The position numbers were made by a program, and so were the translations under genes. A stretch of DNA of 46,874 nucleotides, from the IMG/VR virus record IMGVR_UViG_3300005825_000081, positions 1 to 46,874 of that record; one strand, given 5' to 3'. Below are positions 26,907 through 42,267 of the stretch, piece by piece. The notes under the pieces are model-generated. The model was not told the origin of the DNA, did not search any database, and saw nothing but the letters and a program-made list of their open reading frames with translations. Positions within the stretch are counted from its first letter, which is position 1, and each line of letters starts with the position of its first letter. This stretch comes from a virus.

Positions 26907-26992
26907 GTTTCCGTATTTTCTACCTAGCGAAAGCGGTTTCAGTACTATTCTCACGAATGAGAAGGGGCCTAGCATCGACGTAAAAGAAAAAA

Positions 26993-27018
26993 GGCGGCTA
27001 CCCTACGGGGTAGCCGCC
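26993..27018 (-). terminator. Rho-independent terminator of the leftward transcription
   Basis: Perfect 11-bp stem GGCGGCTACCC / GGGTAGCCGCC with loop TACG. On the - strand it is followed by TTTTTTCTTTTAC, a strong U-tract; on the + strand TCTCACG follows, so it mainly stops leftward transcripts before they enter the late genes. In the same 144-base gap, TTCTCA-CGAA-TGAGAA (26948-26963) may help stop rightward transcripts. Confidence 0.88.
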
Positions 27019-27050
27019 TCTCACGTCCCTACGGCGATGAGAAACCGGCT

Positions 27051-27554: not shown

Positions 27555-27905
27555 TTAATAAGAATTTCTGGCGCTGTCTGCTCCGCCAACGTTTTTAGCT
27601 TCCTGCGCTCCGCAGTCTGGGTTCGCGTATTCTCGCGGGATTTCTACATCGTCTTCTGACGACATATCGTTCGTAGAAACGACGTTCCAATTAAGACTGG
27701 CATCGTACCGAGTTTCCAGAATTTTCTGTATAAAATGTAGCGCTTTTTCCAAATCCTGAATTCCGTTTTTATCCCAGTGCCTATCTATGTATGCGATACA
27801 TCGCGCCTCCAAATACGGCATATCCGCACAATAGTCCCAGTGTTGTATTTCCTTCTTCTTCTTGTAATGCGTACCGCCTATTTGGGTGTCGTTTGCTCTC
27901 GCCAC
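27555..27905 (-). CDS. DUF3310 protein, nucleotide-metabolism neighbour (GTG start)
   Basis: 116 aa from GTG with AAGGAG eight bases upstream; overlaps the HD gene by 28 bases. Family pattern IGGTHYK, IQHWDYCADM, CIAYIDRHWDKNGIQDLEKALHFIQKIL is that of DUF3310, a short phage protein family repeatedly found with nucleotide kinases and pool enzymes. Residues 75-116 are a divergent acidic tail. Its exact role is unknown; the operon (TS homologue, nucleotidase) supports a deoxynucleotide-pool function. Confidence 0.82.
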   Translation of the reverse strand: MARANDTQIGGTHYKKKKEIQHWDYCADMPYLEARCIAYIDRHWDKNGIQDLEKALHFIQKILETRYDASLNWNVVSTNDMSSEDDVEIPREYANPDCGAQEAKNVGGADSARNSY

Positions 27906-28417
27906 GAGATTAGCTCCTTGGTAAAGAAATTTAAGATGTCCGCCATTCCGGCAGTAGTTCCTTGGTCGTTACATATTCTGTCTAGATCACCTATTATGTT
28001 CTCCATTACAGGGTCCATAAACCCGTTCCCCATAGTGTGTTCGCGTATAGCGTAAAACCCCATTTCTGTTAAATCTGCGAATTTAAGCCACCCCATTTCC
28101 TCCTTTATCAAATTATAAGTTGCGTTCAGCCTTTCGTGTATATCAATCTCAGCTTCCGAAATGGCTTTTTGTAAATCCGGGTACATCCGTTTAGCTGTAT
28201 AGGGTATATCTCCGGTCCAATACTCCGCAACATCATGGTCTAAAGCCGCCAGCATGAGATTTTTGGATAGCGCGACTTCTGGAACGACGCATCTTAACCA
28301 CTGCATAACGCCGTAGGTGTGGTCGGCTACCGTTTGCGGGTGCAAGGTAGGATGTGCGTGCCACCTGTCTATGCGACCTGCGTTCCATTTTATTTCTGTT
28401 ACCGAGAATTTATCCAT
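27878..28417 (-). CDS. YfbR-like HD-domain 5'-deoxyribonucleotidase
   Basis: 179 aa. HD hydrolase family: RIDRWH at residues 15-20, VADHT with metal-ligand His33, LDHDVAEYWTGDIP with His61-Asp62, Glu65 and Asp70, and a Lys in the following YTAKR. This is the YfbR arrangement, which removes phosphate from deoxynucleoside 5'-monophosphates. Overlaps the TS-homologue stop by eight bases. In a phage that replaces thymidine, such an enzyme could deplete competing dTMP or dCMP; this is inference. Confidence 0.82.
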   Translation of the reverse strand: MDKFSVTEIKWNAGRIDRWHAHPTLHPQTVADHTYGVMQWLRCVVPEVALSKNLMLAALDHDVAEYWTGDIPYTAKRMYPDLQKAISEAEIDIHERLNATYNLIKEEMGWLKFADLTEMGFYAIREHTMGNGFMDPVMENIIGDLDRICNDQGTTAGMADILNFFTKELISWREQTTPK

Positions 28418-29399
28418 TATTAGGCTCCTCGCTAACCCACTGAGCCGCTAAATGTCTCACGGCTTGGTCTTCAATACTGGCGATATACCTCTGGTAGTTT
28501 TCAGGCGTAGCCTTGAGGTATTTTCTAGATATCCAGTAGTTGAACAGAGGCTTTGCTACGGTCTCCAAAAAAGGCTCCTTGAAATTGAAAGTCAGTATTC
28601 GATTCCTTTCGGTAGCTGCCATAAACACGCCTAGTTCTTTATCAAACGTACTTATGTCCAACACTAGAGGTACTAACTTAGCATTTCTACCGTCGTACCA
28701 ACCTGAACTAACCGGGATTTTTCTCAACTCGTCAAGCCGAGGGGTATTTGTATACATATGCAAATTATTGGAAAACTGCACATACCTTCCTACCAAATAC
28801 CCCGCTTTTGCAGCGACATATTCTTGTATCATAGAAAAGTGGGCTGCGTTAGCCCCGCACATCCCCCAAATTAAATCGTTGCTTCGGTTACACACGGTCA
28901 TATCTAAATAGCTATCCCACACTACACGAAACATTATAAGGTCGTTACAAGGTATGTCTTTACTGCTAGAGCATAAATCCCGCTCCCAATTCCATATTTG
29001 CGCTACAGCGCGGCGGCTGGTTGGGTCTTTTTTCAGTATAGCGGCGCACTCGGTCAACTGATCTATTCGACCAGAACGGAGTCGGTGCCCGTAGGCACCG
29101 TGAAAAGAGTATCCGTTATCGCTATACGCTCGCATCTGCTCGTTAAATCGGGCCAGCCAATTTACGTCTTCCCGACCTGATAGCATCCACAAACCCTCCA
29201 TAACCAGAAACGCTACATTGTTTCTTCGTATAGGGTGCATAACAAAACGCTGTCTAGGCAAGCAGTAGGTCACGCATACCGGGTAATGGGCGGCGATAAC
29301 CGGCCCATTTCGGCTATTTTCTACCTTACCCTCAGTATCAAGATAGTCTATGAGAATTGGCAGAGCTTCGTCAACATTTTGCGCGGTAACGGTTTTCAT
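28410..29399 (-). CDS. Thymidylate synthase homologue, possible dUMP hydroxymethylase
   Basis: 329 aa. TS-fold landmarks: EGLWMLSG (Glu68, Trp71), FHGAYGHRLR at 99-108 (canonical YGxxxR), the catalytic cysteine in DIPCND (Cys151), the phosphate/base segment NRSNDLIWGMCGANAAHFS (Arg172, Asp175, Asn184) and LHMYTN (His214, Tyr216). All catalytic residues are kept; Asn184 favours dUMP over dCMP. The usual PPCH becomes PCND and LGxPFN becomes WGMCGAN, a divergence typical of phage hydroxymethylases and relatives. The neighbours (GT, deacetylase, aGPT-like enzyme) favour 5-hydroxymethyl-dUMP synthesis over plain dTMP synthesis. Confidence 0.85.
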   Translation of the reverse strand: MKTVTAQNVDEALPILIDYLDTEGKVENSRNGPVIAAHYPVCVTYCLPRQRFVMHPIRRNNVAFLVMEGLWMLSGREDVNWLARFNEQMRAYSDNGYSFHGAYGHRLRSGRIDQLTECAAILKKDPTSRRAVAQIWNWERDLCSSSKDIPCNDLIMFRVVWDSYLDMTVCNRSNDLIWGMCGANAAHFSMIQEYVAAKAGYLVGRYVQFSNNLHMYTNTPRLDELRKIPVSSGWYDGRNAKLVPLVLDISTFDKELGVFMAATERNRILTFNFKEPFLETVAKPLFNYWISRKYLKATPENYQRYIASIEDQAVRHLAAQWVSEEPNNG

Positions 29400-29875
29400 T
29401 TTTCAGTTTTAACCTCAAGCAGTCCTAATTGATAGGCTTTTGATATGTAAGTAGCAGCGGTTTCATACGGCGCTTTGGACGCAGCTATCATAGGGTACAC
29501 CTCGATCATTTTCTCCGCTATCTCCTTTCGTGTAGCCCCGTGGTCGCCGGTAGACAACACATGGCCTACCACGCACGCTACATATTCTGCCGTTTGATGC
29601 CCCATACCTTTTTTCAGCTGTTGCCAATTTTTATACTGGCTAGATACGATAAAGATACACCCTGGGGGAGCTTTTTGTCGGAGCGATTTAGTCCTTTTGA
29701 AAGACTTTTTATGCGCTCCAGAAATTTCAGATAGCTCGGGCTTGCTAAACGTTACTATCCTGCCGGCAGAGTCTTCTACCGCCTCTACATACATATAGTA
29801 GTGGCATTCTACCTCGACGCCTGCCGCCATTAAAGTTTCTGCCGTGTCTTGGTCGATCTTTACTTTAGTTTTCAT
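29396..29875 (-). CDS. Unknown, winged-helix-like C-terminus, in modification cluster
   Basis: 159 aa from ATG 29875, chosen for AAAGGAAAC upstream; the frame continues open to 29971. Residues 1-90 are a mixed alpha/beta region with a basic centre (SGAHKKSFKRTKSLRQKAPP). The C-terminal 60 residues (HGATRKEIAEKMIEVYPMIAASKAPYETAATYISKAYQLGLLEVK) look like a winged-helix fold. Overlaps the TS homologue by four bases. A DNA-binding adaptor that guides modification, or a regulator, is possible; no family recognised. Confidence 0.7.
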   Translation of the reverse strand: MKTKVKIDQDTAETLMAAGVEVECHYYMYVEAVEDSAGRIVTFSKPELSEISGAHKKSFKRTKSLRQKAPPGCIFIVSSQYKNWQQLKKGMGHQTAEYVACVVGHVLSTGDHGATRKEIAEKMIEVYPMIAASKAPYETAATYISKAYQLGLLEVKTEK

Positions 29876-29897
29876 AATTAAAAGTTTCCTTTGTAGA

Positions 29898-30749
29898 TTA
29901 AGTGTTTCCGTTATACCTCTGCTTTGGTTTTCCCGTACCCTGCAACGTGCGCATGTACTTAGAAAATTCACACATTACGTTCGAGCAGTTGTTCGGGTCT
30001 AAAAACACCGGAGGTACTCCAGGGTGCTTTGACAATAGGTCTTGCAACTCCATCAGCTCTCCGTGTGTATCTTTTATGGTCGTTCCTTGCGGGCGACCGT
30101 ATAAATAGTTGAGACCTTTTATTGTGCCAGGGCCTGCTTCGACCCAAGTTGTCCAGTCTTGAAACTCGTGTCCGGGGCGGTGGTAAGGCGAGTAGCGTAT
30201 ATCAGCTACCATCTGGTTTCGCATAAACGGCCCCATGCCGTAAAACTTTCCGATAAATTCAGCCCAAGTTTCTAGCTTCAGAGTAGTTAACGGAGCACTA
30301 CCGAGTTCATCCCACATTGGAGTAAATACATCTCGTATAAGGTAGGTATGCTTTGGGATTCCTTGCGACCGAGCGTGAATCATATACGCGCCGTTGAATA
30401 GCTTCTTTCCTCTGTCTTGTCTTGCGTCGAGCAGTAGGTTGAGATTGTCGGGGCTGAAGTCGTCTATATACCCGATTTCTCCCAGGCACTCCGGGAGATT
30501 GAAAACGCGGGCAACGGCGATGTTAAACCATAACGTTAGCGGGGTTATTTTAGGATGTACAAAGTAGTACCTTTGAATCCATTTCGTAACCGGGTCGTCT
30601 TGCCTATCCACGTTACAAAAGCGGTAATTTTGAATAATGAAATCGTTACACCAGGGTTTTGGTTGACGTCGCTCGTAACCGATTCTGGCCCGTTCGCGTT
30701 GGCTGATATAGTATAAAAGCGTTTGATAAGCGTTTTCGTCGATCACCAT
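29898..30749 (-). CDS. aGPT-pyrophosphorylase / HMUDK-helical-like thymine hypermodification enzyme
   Basis: 283 aa. The N-terminus (SQRERARIGYERR, KPWCNDFIIQNYRFCNVDRQDDPVTKWI, residues 16-58) and later FIGKFYGMGPFMRNQMVADIRYSP plus EAGPGTIKGLNYLYGRP are the hallmarks of alpha-glutamyl/putrescinyl thymine pyrophosphorylases and the related helical domain of 5-hmdU DNA kinases. These act on phosphorylated 5-hydroxymethyluracil in phage DNA, replacing pyrophosphate by a nucleophile. No P-loop is present, so it is the helical enzyme alone. Overlaps the deacetylase stop by seven bases. Confidence 0.82.
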   Translation of the reverse strand: MVIDENAYQTLLYYISQRERARIGYERRQPKPWCNDFIIQNYRFCNVDRQDDPVTKWIQRYYFVHPKITPLTLWFNIAVARVFNLPECLGEIGYIDDFSPDNLNLLLDARQDRGKKLFNGAYMIHARSQGIPKHTYLIRDVFTPMWDELGSAPLTTLKLETWAEFIGKFYGMGPFMRNQMVADIRYSPYHRPGHEFQDWTTWVEAGPGTIKGLNYLYGRPQGTTIKDTHGELMELQDLLSKHPGVPPVFLDPNNCSNVMCEFSKYMRTLQGTGKPKQRYNGNT

Positions 30750-31309
30750 AGTATTATCTCTGTTGTATGTGGAAGAATGTCTTTGTTATAGAAAAAGAAC
30801 AGACTTTGTGTTTTGAAAATATCTACGGTCTTTTTGTCGTATTTTCGACCTCCTGGTTTATACATAGAAATGACTTTTTTCCCAAACGATTTTTCCTGCA
30901 ACTCGTCTTGATTTTTAAGCTGCATCGCATAAGGCTGATCGACGTAGTAAAACAAAGGTGGGTTGTCATAAATCTCGGACTCCCCCCGTAGGTAGTCGCA
31001 GGCCTCTGTAACCGCGTAATGCTCGGCATGGCGCAACCCTAAAGGGCAGATTATAGCCCAATCTTTTTTCGCAGGGATTGAGGCTATTATAGCGGGAGTA
31101 CCGTCCATACTGCCGCATTCTTCGTACCCCATCCAGCTATGAGAAGCTCCTACGCTATGCGCGTATGCTTCAGCTTCGGCAGCACGTTTCGGGGTTCCGT
31201 ATACGGTGACTATTTCAACTTCGTCCCCCCACTTTATCCACCGTTTTATATGCCCTCCTAAAGATAAAAAGGCATCATCGGCGTGAGGTTCTATCACCAT
31301 GTATTTCAT
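30743..31309 (-). CDS. LmbE/PIG-L-type zinc deacetylase
   Basis: 188 aa. Zinc-binding EPHADDAFLSLGG near the N-terminus (His9, Asp11, Asp12) and CPLGLRHAEHYAVTEA (His94, His97) are the two signatures of the GlcNAc-PI / LmbE de-N-acetylase family, which removes acetyl groups from N-acetylated amino sugars. Length is near the family minimum. First gene of a transcription unit with promoter cassette 5 and a TATGGAG ribosome site. Together with the glycosyltransferase it suggests a deacetylated amino sugar on DNA or on a cell-surface glycan; the nearby modification genes favour DNA. Confidence 0.87.
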   Translation of the reverse strand: MKYMVIEPHADDAFLSLGGHIKRWIKWGDEVEIVTVYGTPKRAAEAEAYAHSVGASHSWMGYEECGSMDGTPAIIASIPAKKDWAIICPLGLRHAEHYAVTEACDYLRGESEIYDNPPLFYYVDQPYAMQLKNQDELQEKSFGKKVISMYKPGGRKYDKKTVDIFKTQSLFFFYNKDILPHTTEIILW

Positions 31310-31339
31310 TAATCGGTCTCCATATTTATTAGGCGCAAG

Positions 31340-31396
31340 TCGAGTGCTCCCGATCTACTCCTATTATACTACGGCAGTATAGCCAGGTAAAGCGTT
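31340..31396 (-). promoter_or_regulatory. Promoter-operator cassette 5
   Basis: Minus strand: -35 TTTACC (31386-31391), 17-base spacer containing ATACTGCCGTAG, -10 TATAAT (31363-31368). TATACT and AGTATA form a 17-base dyad overlapping the -10, an operator-like arrangement. It drives the deacetylase-to-DUF3310 unit. A small TCG..CGA hairpin is possible in the leader. Confidence 0.75.
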
Positions 31397-32539
31397 TTAA
31401 AATCCCATTATTTTATCATAAACGGTAGAAGCAAGGAAGTTTTCACTCACATAGGCTTTCGCTAATTTCTGCCTTGCTCCGTCTGTGGCGAAATTCGTCG
31501 TTATCAGGCAGTCGTTTATCTCCTGGGCTATATTCTCTGCGCGCACTTTTAGGCATAACTCTGTCGGGATAATAGAGTTTTCGGCCACTATCGGAAGGCA
31601 TCCGTACCATAATGCCTCTATTCCGGTAGTATTGATTGACCCTTTGTTGTATACTTCGTAACGTGCTCGACCCATTCCCTGAAAGTCTGCCATAGCCCAT
31701 GAGCGACTTAAGATGTCCGGGATATTCTCTAACGCTGTGTACCCGTGAAACGTCGCGTTCCCACGTCCGGAGAACTTGCTGTCGAACATGTCTTTTCCTA
31801 CGACGCTTTGCCATAAAGGAGTGTTCCTCATTTGATAGTATTCTATCCCGTTGGAGTACATATCAACGGTTATCCGGTTATTGATATCCGGGAGGGCTTT
31901 TACAAACTGTTTTATCCCCTTTATGTTTTTCCACTGAGACAGCCACACCAGCAAAGGATGCTCTGTACGAGAAACATGCGAAGGCTCAGGGTAGAACGGG
32001 ATGTGCACCCCTTCTATGCCGTACCGCTCGACAGTTTCTCTATAGGAGTAGGCAATAGTGACGTGGTTTAGCGTAGGCGTCATTTCCAACCCGAGTTCCA
32101 ACCACGCTCGATATGAGTCTGCGTACCCGTCGCATATACGACCTATCATGGGTATCTCTATCATACGCAAAAAGTCGTAAAAGAAAGGTTCCGATCCATA
32201 CGCTTTATTCGGGTGCGGCACCATACCACTAAGGTACAGATAGTCGAAATTAAGGTTTATGTAGTCTGCTACTACTTTTGCATGTCGCGGGTGGTGAGAC
32301 AGTTTTCCGTCAACTGTAAGGTATACGTCGCCCCCTCTAATGAGTTGCCGCTCTCCATAGATTTCGTAGTCTTTTTGGACCCAGGGCCACGTTTCAAAAA
32401 CTTTCCATACGTGCCCTCGATCAGCGCCTTCGTTGTACATTGCGATCAGTTCTGAGTTAAGTCCTGCTACTCCTGTCGTTTTCCATTGTAGTGCGCATAC
32501 CCGTAGTGGGGGGTTTTCTTTTTTATTTAAGAATTTCAT
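31397..32539 (-). CDS. Glycosyltransferase, GT-B type (GT4-like)
   Basis: 380 aa. Two-domain architecture: an N-terminal Rossmann-like half opening VCALQWKTTGVAGLNSELIAMYNEG, and a C-terminal half with LVWLSQWKNIKGIKQFVKALPDI, a phosphate-loop region (FHGYTALENIPDILSRSWAMADFQGMGRARYEVYNKGSINTTGIEALWYGCLPIV) whose E-A-L-x-x-G-x-x-P-I-V ending is the classic nucleotide-sugar E-x7-E site of GT4-like enzymes. Starts inside the helicase gene (17-base overlap), so it is co-expressed with replication. Likely transfers a sugar to modified DNA bases; a surface-glycan role cannot be excluded. Confidence 0.82.
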   Translation of the reverse strand: MKFLNKKENPPLRVCALQWKTTGVAGLNSELIAMYNEGADRGHVWKVFETWPWVQKDYEIYGERQLIRGGDVYLTVDGKLSHHPRHAKVVADYINLNFDYLYLSGMVPHPNKAYGSEPFFYDFLRMIEIPMIGRICDGYADSYRAWLELGLEMTPTLNHVTIAYSYRETVERYGIEGVHIPFYPEPSHVSRTEHPLLVWLSQWKNIKGIKQFVKALPDINNRITVDMYSNGIEYYQMRNTPLWQSVVGKDMFDSKFSGRGNATFHGYTALENIPDILSRSWAMADFQGMGRARYEVYNKGSINTTGIEALWYGCLPIVAENSIIPTELCLKVRAENIAQEINDCLITTNFATDGARQKLAKAYVSENFLASTVYDKIMGF

Positions 32540-34191: not shown

Positions 34192-34520
34192 TTTTGCTTC
34201 CTTTCAAGTACGTCAAGCCACATAATGTCTACTTCTTCAATGTTGCGGTTTCGATTCCGGGTTTCTATCAAAGCCCGGACACGGTTTACCATATCAGGTC
34301 GTCGCCTTCCGCAGATTTCCAAGAAAAGGATTTTCTTCAAAGACGAAGTGCTGAAAGATTCATACGTTTTGAAAAGTTTCATCCAGTTAGAAGAAGCATC
34401 CAGAAGCTGTCTTGCTTCGTCTTCAGAACTCGGCATTTCACAAACTTCTGGTATTAACTCCAAAGGCCCGTAGTAAAGCACTACACCGTCTATAATGATC
34501 GTATCGTTTTTCTCGTTCAT
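34176..34520 (-). CDS. Small unknown protein of replication operon
   Basis: 114 aa from ATG at 34520, which forms TGATG with the polymerase stop (an in-frame GTG one codon upstream is less likely). A short beta start (TIIIDGVVLYYGPLELI) is followed by mainly helical sequence including SSLKKILFLEICGRRRPDMVNRVRALIETRNRN. It sits between polymerase and VRR-NUC in one operon. Short proteins at this place are common, but I do not recognise its family. Confidence 0.75.
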   Translation of the reverse strand: MNEKNDTIIIDGVVLYYGPLELIPEVCEMPSSEDEARQLLDASSNWMKLFKTYESFSTSSLKKILFLEICGRRRPDMVNRVRALIETRNRNRNIEEVDIMWLDVLERKQKCESA

Positions 34521-36472
34521 CACTTTTCTTTCCTGTATCGTTGAGAAATGTACCCTTCCGCTTTAAGGGGGAGTCCTTCTGCCCACAAGGGCTGTCTTGC
34601 TAAAAGACTGTCTAGTTCTTCAGCAGGGTTTTCTTTTACGTCTTCATCTATTTCTGTAATAACCTCGTCATGTACAGTAAAAAGAACGTCAAACCCCGCG
34701 TCTTGTATTTTAGGCAGGTTTCCTACCATAACATCACGAGCTACTGCTTGAGTTATATTTTCGACCAATTTCCCTCCGTAGGTGCTTTCTAGTGAAACTT
34801 CTCCATGAAAGTAAATTTCCCCATCTCTTAAAAAGGCTTTTGGGTAGCAGAGGTGGCGACCACTAGGAAGTCGTATTACAACGTCTTTTTGATTCCGGTA
34901 GATCAGAATCTTTTCTCGCACTTCGGCCTTTCCGCCATTCCGTATAACGTGCTTAAACGCATTTTCTACTGTTTTCCAGTAGGATACGATTGCGGGGTGG
35001 GTATTTCTCCAAGCCGGAACTATCTCACTAGCATTTTCGTAATCCATTTCTGCGCCATATTTCGCGCAGAATCTTATGAATCCATCTATCCATTGCCCAT
35101 AGCCTAGCGCTAAAGTGGCGGTTTTACCTACGAAGCGTTGACTATCATTAACAGCTTCATAAACAATATTGTATATTCTCGCCGCAGCATCTCTATAAAT
35201 GTCCCGACCGCTTCTAAATACGCTCAACGTTTTCTCGTCTTTTGCTAGCCACGGTAAAACCCGTGCCTCGATCTGCGATAAATCGCTTATGACGAACACT
35301 TTCTTTTTCTCAGCAATTAGCGTCGGTCGTATCAGGTTCGACGCAACTTCCATAACGTTTTCGGTCGGTATTTGTAGCCCAGCTAGCACGAAATCTATCC
35401 ACTCTGATATTTCTACCCACTTCATAGTAGGCCGGACTAGATTTTGAAGCTGCACTCCTTGCGAGTTGTACCTTCCAGTTCTCCTTGCTCCGTACAATCT
35501 CATAAACCCTTTTAACCTGCCGTCTGAGGATGTACGATTTAAAAACGCTGCGTATTTCTTTGTAGCGGCTAGACCTGCTTCTTGTCTTAGCTCCAGTATT
35601 TGCCTTTCTAAAAACTCCAAATCTTTTCTAGCCAGCGCTTCCACTACCGTTTCTTTCTGTAAATTCGGTAGCTTTATCCTAGATAGCTCTCTCACGATAC
35701 GAGCGGTCTGATTCACGGTAGTTACTCGTCCCCCCGTTATATAGGATAGGATATTATTAACCTCGCTCCCACGAGCTTCTACGGCGTGTAGCATATACTC
35801 AGCAAGAGTTAGGTCTACGCTTACCCCGCGCCGATTCATCTCTATATCGTGTCTTACCTCGACCCAGAACGCATGTGTCATATTTATAGTTGGCATCTTA
35901 TTAAGACATAAACGAGTGGTCTTAACGTCTTGCTTTCCGTATATTACAAATCTCTCCCAATGCAGCGGATGCGTTTCTTTGGTCGCCCGTACCCCTCTTT
36001 TTTGAGGCCCGCAAAATAGGCGTATAAGCTCCTTGCCTTCTTTCAGTTTTTGCTGCTCTTCTGCCAACCCTAGAAAGGGGCCGAGCAACTCAAGTTTAGC
36101 AGGGTAGGCTAAAGACAGCGCGACGGTCATTGTATCTATTACTTGGTCGGCAGGTATAGGGGGCAGTTTTAAAGTGTGATGCCATACGGCATCTTCGAAC
36201 CCGAAATTATGCGCTACTACGACAGCTCCGTGCTCTATAGCGTTTAATATAATTTCTGGGAAAGGCTCCCCGTTATACCAAGTCAGTACGGGGCCGTCAT
36301 CAAAGGCGTAAGACATAAACAGTACTTCAGTAGAAGGATGCTCTGCGTACGCCCAAGCGCCGTAGTCTTCTATACCCAGTTCTGAGAATGTCTCAAAATC
36401 TATGTATACTTTTTTAGGGGGGAATACCAGGTTTTCGACCTGTTTAGGTTTTGCGTTTTGCACGTATTTCAT
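34520..36472 (-). CDS. Family A DNA polymerase with 3'-5' exonuclease
   Basis: 650 aa from the ATG at 36472, chosen since AGGA lies nine bases upstream and a further-upstream in-frame ATG (36520) precedes a terminator hairpin. Exonuclease motifs: YIDFETFSE (Asp25, Glu27), AHNFGFEDAVW (Asn89, Asp94) and YGKQD (Tyr178, Asp182). Polymerase motif A ISDLSQIEARVLPWL (Asp397, Glu402), motif B RFVGKTATLALGYG (Lys450, Tyr458-Gly459), motif C TVHDEVITE (His601-Asp602-Glu603). All catalytic carboxylates are present. This is the replicative polymerase of the phage, which must accept any hydroxymethyl-dUTP present. Confidence 0.96.
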   Translation of the reverse strand: MKYVQNAKPKQVENLVFPPKKVYIDFETFSELGIEDYGAWAYAEHPSTEVLFMSYAFDDGPVLTWYNGEPFPEIILNAIEHGAVVVAHNFGFEDAVWHHTLKLPPIPADQVIDTMTVALSLAYPAKLELLGPFLGLAEEQQKLKEGKELIRLFCGPQKRGVRATKETHPLHWERFVIYGKQDVKTTRLCLNKMPTINMTHAFWVEVRHDIEMNRRGVSVDLTLAEYMLHAVEARGSEVNNILSYITGGRVTTVNQTARIVRELSRIKLPNLQKETVVEALARKDLEFLERQILELRQEAGLAATKKYAAFLNRTSSDGRLKGFMRLYGARRTGRYNSQGVQLQNLVRPTMKWVEISEWIDFVLAGLQIPTENVMEVASNLIRPTLIAEKKKVFVISDLSQIEARVLPWLAKDEKTLSVFRSGRDIYRDAAARIYNIVYEAVNDSQRFVGKTATLALGYGQWIDGFIRFCAKYGAEMDYENASEIVPAWRNTHPAIVSYWKTVENAFKHVIRNGGKAEVREKILIYRNQKDVVIRLPSGRHLCYPKAFLRDGEIYFHGEVSLESTYGGKLVENITQAVARDVMVGNLPKIQDAGFDVLFTVHDEVITEIDEDVKENPAEELDSLLARQPLWAEGLPLKAEGYISQRYRKEK

Positions 36473-36486
36473 ATTCGTTAGTCCTG

Positions 36487-36547
36487 AAAAAAGAGGGGGC
36501 GTGAGCCCCCTAAAGCGCATTCAGGAAAAGGTTAAAACCTGAATGCG
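36487..36547 (-). terminator. Tandem hairpins with U-tract between SSB and polymerase genes
   Basis: Reading leftward: a 10-bp stem CGCATTCAGG (36516-36525) / CCTGAATGCG (36538-36547), then a 7-bp stem AGGGGGC / GCCCCCT (36494-36511) with a GTGA/TCAC loop, followed by CTTTTTT on the minus strand. The second is a good intrinsic terminator, but the polymerase start lies only 15 bases beyond the U-tract, so it is likely leaky and tunes SSB versus polymerase levels. Confidence 0.82.
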
Positions 36548-41141: not shown

Positions 41142-41437
41142 CAGTCAATTTCCACAGCGATTGTTTCATAACTGTAGAGCTTAGACCCTGCTTTGCGATA
41201 CGCCTCTAGAATCCACTTAAAACCCTTGTAGTTCCAAGCTTCTTCAAATTGCGCATCGGTAGCGTTGTCTATTAGCCACTGTAAGTCTCCTTTGTTCCCT
41301 TTGTCGCCGTAGCGACCTCCCAGCAACGACATGAGTTTACAAGTAGCCAGACCTCCAAGATAGACCGTGTTCATAGCACCAGGCCCGCTTCGATAGCGGA
41401 CTGCCCTTTTCATCTCTTTCCGTCTTTGGTCTTTCAT
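41141..41437 (-). CDS. Small protein, unknown, coupled to ardC
   Basis: 98 aa, ATGA overlap with the ArdC stop. Basic N-terminus (KDQRRKEMKRAVRYRSG), a Gly-rich centre with MSLLGGRYGDKGNKGDLQWLIDNATDAQF and a helical end. Could interact with DNA. No recognised domain. Confidence 0.7.
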   Translation of the reverse strand: MKDQRRKEMKRAVRYRSGPGAMNTVYLGGLATCKLMSLLGGRYGDKGNKGDLQWLIDNATDAQFEEAWNYKGFKWILEAYRKAGSKLYSYETIAVEID

Positions 41438-42267
41438 GCAGCCTCCTCAACAGCGTTTTCTTCAGGAAGCAGCAGATTAAGCGCTTTCTGCGCCATTGCT
41501 GCAGCCTTAAAGATGTATTTATGGTCGTTCTCCAACCGGCCTATCCAGTGTGCGATATACTCCGCGTGTTGAAGCCCCTCGTAGGGAAGCCCCAAAGCTG
41601 CTCCGGCCATCGCTGCTCCAAGCTCCGCCACCAATTCCTCTTCTGCGTAGCTGTGATTCTTTATCCGGCCCAGTCGAGCCGCGCCCCCTGTCCAGTGGAT
41701 AAGCTCGTGAAGAAGTGTGGCCTCGTGGTTAGTGAAGTCCTTGAACGCCTCTACCGAGGGCATATGAATCTGATCTACCGAGGGGATATAGCAGGCGCTA
41801 TTGCCGCCGTATTTTACTTCAGCTCCTACGCTTTCTGCTATGCCGATAACGCCGTTTTCAGGAGATACGGGAGGAGTGTAATGTTTCAGCTTTTTTACGT
41901 CCAAATCTTCACACTGGTCGATGTTAAAAACGCAGTAAGTACGCATCAAGGGGATTTTTTCTTTTGCCCCCTGGGCGTTCTCTTTTTCCAGTATTTTGTA
42001 GAAGATAATGTAGGTTCCCTTTTCTCCTTTGGTAACGCTACCGCCAAGCGCTTTCGCTTGATTGTAGGTAACCCAACCGGGAGTAGGGTATTGCCCGCCT
42101 AGCATAGCGAGCAGGAATACGTTGATGCCGGAGTAGGCTCTGCCCGTTACCGCGTTGTGCGGCATATTACCGGCTAGGTCTTTCCAAGGCTTAGACCATT
42201 TGCCCGCGTCTTTGAGACCGTCGATAATAGACAGCGTTATTTGGTCGTAGAGGTCTTCATTTTTCAT
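41434..42267 (-). CDS. ardC: ArdC-type antirestriction protein
   Basis: 277 aa. N-terminal ssDNA-binding region typical of the family (AGKWSKPWKDLAGNMPHNAVTGRAYSGINVFLL, about 22-55, then PTPGWVTYNQAKALGG) and C-terminal metalloprotease-like domain with HELIH at 187-191 and a glutamate-rich AEEELVAELGAAM helix supplying the third ligand. ArdC proteins protect incoming DNA and inhibit restriction. First gene after promoter cassette 3, so expressed early. Complements the predicted base modification. Confidence 0.9.
   Translation of the reverse strand: MKNEDLYDQITLSIIDGLKDAGKWSKPWKDLAGNMPHNAVTGRAYSGINVFLLAMLGGQYPTPGWVTYNQAKALGGSVTKGEKGTYIIFYKILEKENAQGAKEKIPLMRTYCVFNIDQCEDLDVKKLKHYTPPVSPENGVIGIAESVGAEVKYGGNSACYIPSVDQIHMPSVEAFKDFTNHEATLLHELIHWTGGAARLGRIKNHSYAEEELVAELGAAMAGAALGLPYEGLQHAEYIAHWIGRLENDHKYIFKAAAMAQKALNLLLPEENAVEEAA

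Follow-up and report, generated by a model that had tools for sequence, protein, structure and literature searches.

Hypermodification of thymidine in phage DNA is known from Pseudomonas phage M6 and other Yuavirus phages (5-NedU). In M6 a dUMP hydroxymethylase related to thymidylate synthase (TS), a HMUDK_hel protein, a HD nucleotidase, a DUF3310 protein and a polymerase are accompanied by a P-loop 5-hmdU DNA kinase (gp54), an amino acid:DNA transferase (ADDT, gp51) and Nmad5 (gp56). A sugar is attached to a 5-hydroxymethylpyrimidine in DNA in the T-even phages, where T4 alpha-glucosyltransferase (AGT), an enzyme of the GT-B fold, acts in the glucosylation of 5hmC without a PIG-L step. In addition, there are phages that encode a TAGT glycosyltransferase (PF20691, GT-A) together with HMUDK_hel, TS and a nucleotidase but without the kinase, including pelagiphages in which TS and aG/PT-PPlase1 were noted beside a putative beta-glucosyl-HMC-alpha-glucosyltransferase (PMC9599517), whereas the substrate of solitary TAGTs was left open in a study of T4 (PMC13216743). 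Outside the phages, a GT4-type GlcNAc transferase followed by a PIG-L deacetylase is found in bacillithiol (BshA/BshB) and mycothiol (MshA/MshB) metabolism, the acceptors being small molecules (malate, inositol phosphate) and not DNA.

Here we describe a gene set of an uncultured phage (IMG/VR record IMGVR_UViG_3300005825_000081) that is predicted to make a sugar-modified 5-hydroxymethyluracil in its DNA. The whole stretch of 46,874 nucleotides (46.9 kb) that was analysed, referred to below as the window, is a contig that is cut at one end, inside terL. The relevant features are the following:

26989..27022 (-), a strong intrinsic-terminator-like hairpin
27555..27905 (-), DUF3310 protein, T7 gp1.7-like
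27878..28417 (-), HD/YfbR-like 5'-deoxynucleotidase
28410..29399 (-), TS homologue (329 aa), predicted dUMP 5-hydroxymethylase
29396..29875 (-), 159-aa protein of unknown function (the listed 191-aa ORF from 29971 probably starts too early)
29898..30749 (-), HMUDK_hel (283 aa, former aGPT-Pplase1), predicted DNA-binding or base-exposing partner
30743..31309 (-), predicted PIG-L family de-N-acetylase (188 aa)
31397..32539 (-), predicted GT-B glycosyltransferase (GT, 380 aa), predicted to act on 5hmU in DNA
34520..36520 (-), family A DNA polymerase

The first-pass annotation had recognized the TS homologue, an aGPT-pyrophosphorylase/HMUDK-helical-like enzyme, a PIG-L/LmbE deacetylase and a GT-B glycosyltransferase, with a nucleotidase and DUF3310 next door, and had proposed a new modified base, for example an amino-sugar or sugar-linked 5-hydroxymethyluracil. 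The four genes were confirmed and the proposal is supported by the analyses below, with three corrections, namely, that the label 'aGPT-pyrophosphorylase' is misleading, that the route is probably not of the alpha-putrescinyl or alpha-glutamyl type, and that the presence of a putative glycosyltransferase beside TS and aG/PT-PPlase1 had already been noted in the pelagiphages.

The TS homologue (Thymidylat_synt E 1.4e-21; PHROG 5131 E 3e-86) shows 39% identity over residues 1-314 to the Pseudomonas MP1412/M6-group deoxyuridylate hydroxymethyltransferase, and its best solved relative by sequence is the CMP hydroxymethylase MilA. Alignment with M6, SPO1 gp29, T4 gp42 and E. coli ThyA showed that the catalytic residues (Cys151, the Arg/Ser/Asp set and the dUMP-type Asn184) are intact, although the C-terminal TS cap is not recognisable. 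The 283-aa protein falls inside the aGPT/HMUDK superfamily (PF18723, E 3.3e-35, 122.2 bits versus a cut-off of 25, residues 6-269), with homologues in M6, PhiW-14 and >500 IMG/VR stretches. The Pfam domain is now named HMUDK_hel, i.e. a helical partner of a DNA kinase, and nothing in our analysis shows pyrophosphorylase chemistry. Its structural model (pLDDT 93) resembles DNA glycosylases and PaMx11 PUGT, the best matches being the PaMx11 5-PmdU glycinyltransferase (Z 11.1) and HhH 8-oxoG DNA glycosylases (Z about 10), but a Z of about 11 for a helical protein may reflect a common arrangement.

In the case of the other two proteins the window sequence by itself gave only weak indications. The PIG-L protein scored E 1e-4 (23.3 bits versus a cut-off of 28.2) and the GT matched no Pfam family at E up to 1, and thus also not the T4 AGT family (PF11440). 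Single-sequence scans with either protein found no relatives among the viral contigs searched, neither matched the INPHARED phages, and the GT had no match by sequence among solved structures; only two- and six-sequence profiles reached the relatives. A megablast of the whole region against phages also gave no match. Nevertheless, both assignments appear to hold up. The PIG-L protein carries the metal-binding PHxDD and H-x-x-H motifs (EPHADD and RHAEH in the window; HPDH/HPEH/HHDH in most relatives), a profile of six relatives matches solved PIG-L glycan deacetylases (E 5e-8), and the relatives that we labelled L095 and L109 pass the Pfam cut-off (32.8 and 30.9 bits). The AlphaFold2 model of the GT, which is only moderately confident (pLDDT 73, pTM 0.75), has the two Rossmann-like domains of the GT-B type and aligns with Z 20-25 to 50 glycosyltransferase entries over about 290 or more residues. 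The best VIA-align match is T4 alpha-glucosyltransferase (1y6g, Z 25.2), tied with PimA (24.3) and BshA (24.2), and it should be noted that GT-B folds resemble each other.

The neighbouring genes also have counterparts in M6. The HD/YfbR-like nucleotidase (PF12917, E 2e-8) takes the same place as M6 gp59 and could, by inference, remove competing dTMP or dUMP, and the DUF3310 protein (PHROG 5839 E 4e-16; PHROG 236 'nucleotide kinase' E 1e-14; Pfam DUF3310 below its cut-off) takes the same place as M6 gp61 and could, again by inference, phosphorylate 5hmdUMP. The family A polymerase (PF00476, E 7e-23) would then incorporate 5hmdUTP. The 159-aa protein sits where M6 has Nmad5 but is not alike; no Pfam, PHROG or NCBIfam family, no phage match and no homologue in the related loci were found. 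The M6 gene order kinase-HMUDK_hel-Nmad5-TS-HD-DUF3310 matches the order GT-PIG-L-HMUDK_hel-x-TS-HD-DUF3310 in the window, with GT and PIG-L in the slot of the kinase. The kinase (PF18748) was not found in the contig, where P-loops occur only in the terminase and a SNF2 helicase apart from spurious short matches, and a local profile of the ADDT cluster found no ADDT in the window (PF18724 itself was run only on contig G005, see below).

A comparative analysis indicated that the kinase and the TAGT glycosyltransferase alternate: among 88 HMUDK_hel loci 26 carry the kinase and 25 a TAGT, and none carries both (Fisher p 4e-5), and with curated Pfam models on 50 records the numbers were 11 and 14, with an overlap of 0. 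The GT family of the window occurs in 9 other viral records, every one with a PIG-L, and 6 of those (labelled G005, G048, G050, G051, G055 and G056) also have HMUDK_hel and TS. These six contigs are metagenomic and three of them are short fragments. The module is kept together across very divergent phages (22-47% protein identity), and in the tree the contigs fall on several HMUDK_hel lineages, three of them directly beside kinase-bearing relatives. In L109 the PIG-L follows a non-homologous TAGT, together with HMUDK_hel and TS, and another contig, G049, has GT and PIG-L with a Tet_JBP dioxygenase, while no TS was found. Relatives furthermore add FkbM methyltransferase, APS kinase and sulfotransferase-like genes, which fit sugar tailoring.

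On this basis we propose, with moderate confidence, a thymine-replacement pathway in which 5-hydroxymethyluracil in phage DNA is sugar-modified instead of phosphorylated. No chemistry has been measured, and each reaction, the order of the steps and the identity of the sugar are inferred. In this model the TS homologue turns dUMP into 5hmdUMP; a nucleotide kinase (the DUF3310 protein and/or the host) and the host make 5hmdUTP, while the HD nucleotidase lowers competing dTMP/dUMP and the family A polymerase incorporates 5hmdU; HMUDK_hel, with its predicted DNA-glycosylase-like fold, binds DNA and presents the 5hmU base; the GT-B enzyme transfers a sugar, most likely an N-acetylhexosamine such as GlcNAc from UDP-GlcNAc, to the 5-hydroxymethyl group; and the PIG-L enzyme removes the acetyl group, leaving an amino-sugar on 5hmU. 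That a base-modification pathway built on 5hmdU is present we consider highly likely, that a sugar is added to 5hmU is probable, and that this is a deacetylated amino-sugar remains tentative. The GlcNAc-transferase/PIG-L pairs BshA/BshB and MshA/MshB are in line with this reading.

Alternatively, 5hmU might be phosphorylated as in M6, by a kinase that is unrecognised or lies in the missing part of the contig, with GT and PIG-L decorating a later intermediate or acting elsewhere. HMUDK_hel is after all named for the kinase, and in G005 the kinase is present between PIG-L and HMUDK_hel. However, PF18748 was not found in 7 of the 8 records with PIG-L, HMUDK_hel and TS, including records longer than the window such as G048 (54.5 kb) and G050 (60.5 kb), no ADDT was seen in these loci, and kinase and TAGT never co-occur in the 88 loci, so that we consider this route unlikely. 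It is similarly unlikely that GT and PIG-L modify the host surface glycan or virion proteins (i.e. superinfection exclusion or capsid glycosylation) and only happen to lie beside a 5hmU cassette. GT4-type enzymes and PIG-L deacetylases are common in surface-polysaccharide loci, two T4-like contigs (L102 and L103) carry GT, PIG-L and a second GT4 with neither TS, HMUDK_hel nor Tet_JBP detected, so the pair may act on another substrate there, and a further record, L094, has a weakly matching PIG-L protein in a sugar-nucleotide-like cluster. Against this stand the repeated linkage to HMUDK_hel and TS on several lineages, the association of PIG-L with TAGT in L109 and that with Tet_JBP in G049, and the fact that in the genome contigs searched no chromosomal polysaccharide locus with this GT was found, the only hit being a contig that appears to be the G050 contig itself. 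Plain SPO1-like substitution by 5hmU, in which only the hydroxymethylase matters and the rest is decayed or does something else, is in line with the clear placement of the TS homologue in the hydroxymethylase group, but it is very unlikely given that all four ORFs are intact with conserved active-site motifs and that the module is conserved.

With respect to the TAGT phages the window differs in the predicted fold of its glycosyltransferase and in the presence of PIG-L, which is new to the set except for L109, and we found no report of the GT/PIG-L version in a literature survey that did not extend to several key papers. Two other phages deserve mention. Yersinia phage YerA41 carries about 1 kDa of apparent oligosaccharide on T (PMC9023294), the fragments of which do not match hexosamine. 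Stenotrophomonas phage DLP3 has a BshA-annotated GT and a PIG-L, and its DNA resists 15 restriction enzymes (PMC7326821), but homology of its GT to the GT described here was not supported: the DLP3 GT is not matched by the HMM of this GT family at E 1, its PIG-L is not matched either (that of DLP5 only at E 0.004), and its relative DLP5 annotates ThyX.

If our model is right, it adds an amino-sugar thymine, which could hide the DNA from bacterial defences, to the modified bases of DNA, it points to HMUDK_hel as the common partner of several otherwise unrelated base-modifying enzymes, and it offers GT and PIG-L enzymes that could be used as tools to glycosylate and amine-tag 5hmU in DNA. A more speculative and at present rather doubtful extension is that phages carry an interchangeable cassette system on 5hmU, in which HMUDK_hel serves as a shared base-presenting partner while the transferase is swapped among kinase, TAGT and GT-B + PIG-L. 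The latter form would then reach a positively charged group, like the amines of 5-NedU and putrescinyl-thymine, by sugar chemistry, and in relatives the sugar would be further sulfated (APS kinase and sulfotransferase) or O-methylated (FkbM), i.e. there would be a decorated glycan on phage DNA.

Finally, the hairpin listed above, which has a stem of 15 bp, lies downstream of the minus-strand gene row.

In the window, a whole IMG/VR virus record of 46,874 bases, the structural genes run on the plus strand from a terminase cut at its N-terminus to about 26.9 kb, whereas the replication and modification genes run on the minus strand down to a strong terminator-like hairpin. The terminase is nearest to that of Caulobacter phage DMCA, followed by phages of 41-48 kb such as Jersey (43.4 kb), and the contig is therefore probably nearly complete, although it is cut at one end. 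Two features are located as follows:
27022-26989, minus strand: strong terminator-like hairpin
41434-42267, minus strand: ArdC-type antirestriction protein (ArdcN + MPTase-PolyVal), a second likely counter-defence gene

The four genes that the first-pass annotation had placed within 28410-32539 and had read as a thymine hypermodification pathway were all recovered there, on the minus strand. The TS homologue matches the M6-group deoxyuridylate hydroxymethyltransferase at 39% identity over residues 1-314 and its best solved relative by sequence is the CMP hydroxymethylase MilA. The 283-aa protein is PF18723, 'HMUDK_hel' (E 3.3e-35), and thus does not fall outside the aGPT/HMUDK superfamily, the outcome by which the first-pass annotation would have been contradicted. 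In contrast, the PIG-L call made from the window sequence alone is weak (E 1e-4) and the glycosyltransferase (GT) had no sequence match at all.

To make these weak calls firm we turned to related loci. A search with an HMUDK_hel alignment returned 80 loci, one of which (locus L010) contains clear homologues of both the GT (E 2e-72) and the PIG-L (E 2e-27), and the alignments made from these were used to find more. A six-sequence PIG-L profile hits the solved glycan deacetylases teicoplanin Orf2 and Dbv21 (E 5e-8 and 5e-7), and two relatives pass the Pfam PIG-L cut-off. The predicted structure of the GT, a model of moderate confidence (pLDDT 73, pTM 0.75), has a GT-B fold. The top chains according to VIA-align are those of T4 alpha-glucosyltransferase (AGT; 1y6g, solved with DNA holding an HMU base; Z 25.2, rmsd 3.8 over 323), tied with PimA (24.3) and BshA (24.2), whereas Foldseek ranks BshA first (E 1e-11), followed by AGT.

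In M6 the order is ADDT - PLP enzyme - 'photolyase' - P-loop 5-hmdU kinase (PF18748) - HMUDK_hel - Nmad5 - TS - HD - DUF3310 - polymerase, whereas here it is GT - PIG-L - HMUDK_hel - unknown 159 aa - TS - HD - DUF3310. Within the window, which is cut at one end, there is no PF18748 match and the only real P-loop proteins are the terminase and the SNF2 helicase. As the relative L002 has a TAGT glycosyltransferase in that region (L002:6797-7573), we surveyed the partners of HMUDK_hel more broadly. With the curated Pfam models on 50 records, 11 had the kinase, 14 had TAGT and none had both. With local HMMs on 88 loci the counts were 26, 25 and 0, respectively (Fisher p 4e-5, to be taken as a guide only because the phages are related). 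The presence of TAGTs near HMUDK_hel in loci that lack the kinase (i.e. L002 and 24 other loci) suggests that solitary TAGTs act on 5hmU. In addition, an unknown family of about 310 aa (our cluster C19, without a Pfam match over cut-off) lies near HMUDK_hel in about 8 loci (L049, L074, L008, L016, L021, L014, L031 and L050; e.g. L074:10329-11270), twice with the kinase, and may be another base-modifying enzyme. About 24 of the 88 loci (e.g. L011, L015, L024 and L070) have no recognised kinase, TAGT, C19 or GT/PIG-L partner in the flanks and may hold further partner types. On an HMUDK_hel tree the five partner labels need 28 changes (shuffled mean 49). The GT/PIG-L carriers do not cluster on this quick tree, which was made without bootstrap: 7 changes are needed for 8 rows, of which at least 4 are forced by well-supported branches. 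Three carriers sit close beside kinase carriers, namely L088 with L042, L104 with M6 and Sonora, and L010 with L046.

Ten viral records carry this GT family: the window, G005, G048, G049, G050, G051, L102 (G053), L103 (G054), L104 (G055) and L105 (G056), where the handles denote metagenomic contigs, some of which are short. All ten have the PIG-L, adjacent or within about 2 kb except in G050 (about 10 kb), and seven also have HMUDK_hel and TS. PF18748 is present in only one of these seven, G005. In another locus, L109, the PIG-L lies directly behind a TAGT, together with HMUDK_hel and TS, i.e. the deacetylase pairs with a non-homologous glycosyltransferase. G049 (L089; G049:45888-46328 and 60362-61495), a T4-like contig in which no TS family gene was detected, has GT + PIG-L and a Tet_JBP dioxygenase (PF12851, E 3e-22, no match in 14 control genomes), an alternative source of 5-hydroxymethyl bases. 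The two large T4-like contigs L102 (8929-12023) and L103 (8986-12030) have GT, PIG-L and a second GT4-type gene without a recognised hydroxymethyl source; neither TS, HMUDK_hel nor Tet_JBP was found, and the acceptor is unclear in these cases. Locus L065 holds a distant GT-like match (E 3e-7) without PIG-L and was not counted. In 84,980 bacterial and archaeal genomes the GT profile found one contig only, PAQH01000134.1, of the same length and range as the G050 contig.

Thymidine hypermodification from 5hmdU, with 5hmdU being phosphorylated by a DNA kinase, is known for M6, ViI and PhiW-14 (PMC6449724). The combination of TS + aG/PT-PPlase1 beside a nucleotidase and a putative HMC glucosyltransferase was noted in pelagiphages (PMC9599517), and solitary TAGTs of unknown substrate are noted in PMC13216743. 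Phage YerA41 carries an apparent oligosaccharide on T (PMC9023294). The isolated Stenotrophomonas phage DLP3 (L117; 9671-15096), with PIG-L, WcaG, WecE, a methyltransferase and a BshA-annotated GT, has DNA that is resistant to 15 restriction enzymes and carries an unknown modification (PMC7326821), but its GT is not matched by the HMM of the GT family described here. We found no report of GT + PIG-L together with HMUDK_hel and a hydroxymethylase, albeit in a literature survey that did not cover several key papers, and it is this combination that appears to differ from the known systems.

BshA/BshB and MshA/MshB are established pairs of a GT4-type GlcNAc transferase and a PIG-L deacetylase. By that analogy, and in the absence of biochemical data, we propose that HexNAc is transferred to 5hmU in DNA and then deacetylated to an amino-sugar, where all reactions and the identity of the sugar are inferred. 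HMUDK_hel gives a confident model (pLDDT 93) whose best matches are the 5-PmdU glycinyltransferase PUGT of phage PaMx11 (Z 11.1) and HhH 8-oxoguanine DNA glycosylases (Z about 10). Although for a helical protein such Z values may reflect a common arrangement, and Foldseek alone gives no significant match, we interpret it as a likely DNA-binding, base-presenting partner. The tailoring genes that are found in relatives fit a sugar product. For instance, locus L091 has an APS kinase (E 3e-12) and a sulfotransferase-like gene between HMUDK_hel and TS (L091:2031-3019), which points to a possible sulfation of the DNA-bound sugar, whereas G050 has an FkbM methyltransferase and L010 a methyltransferase.
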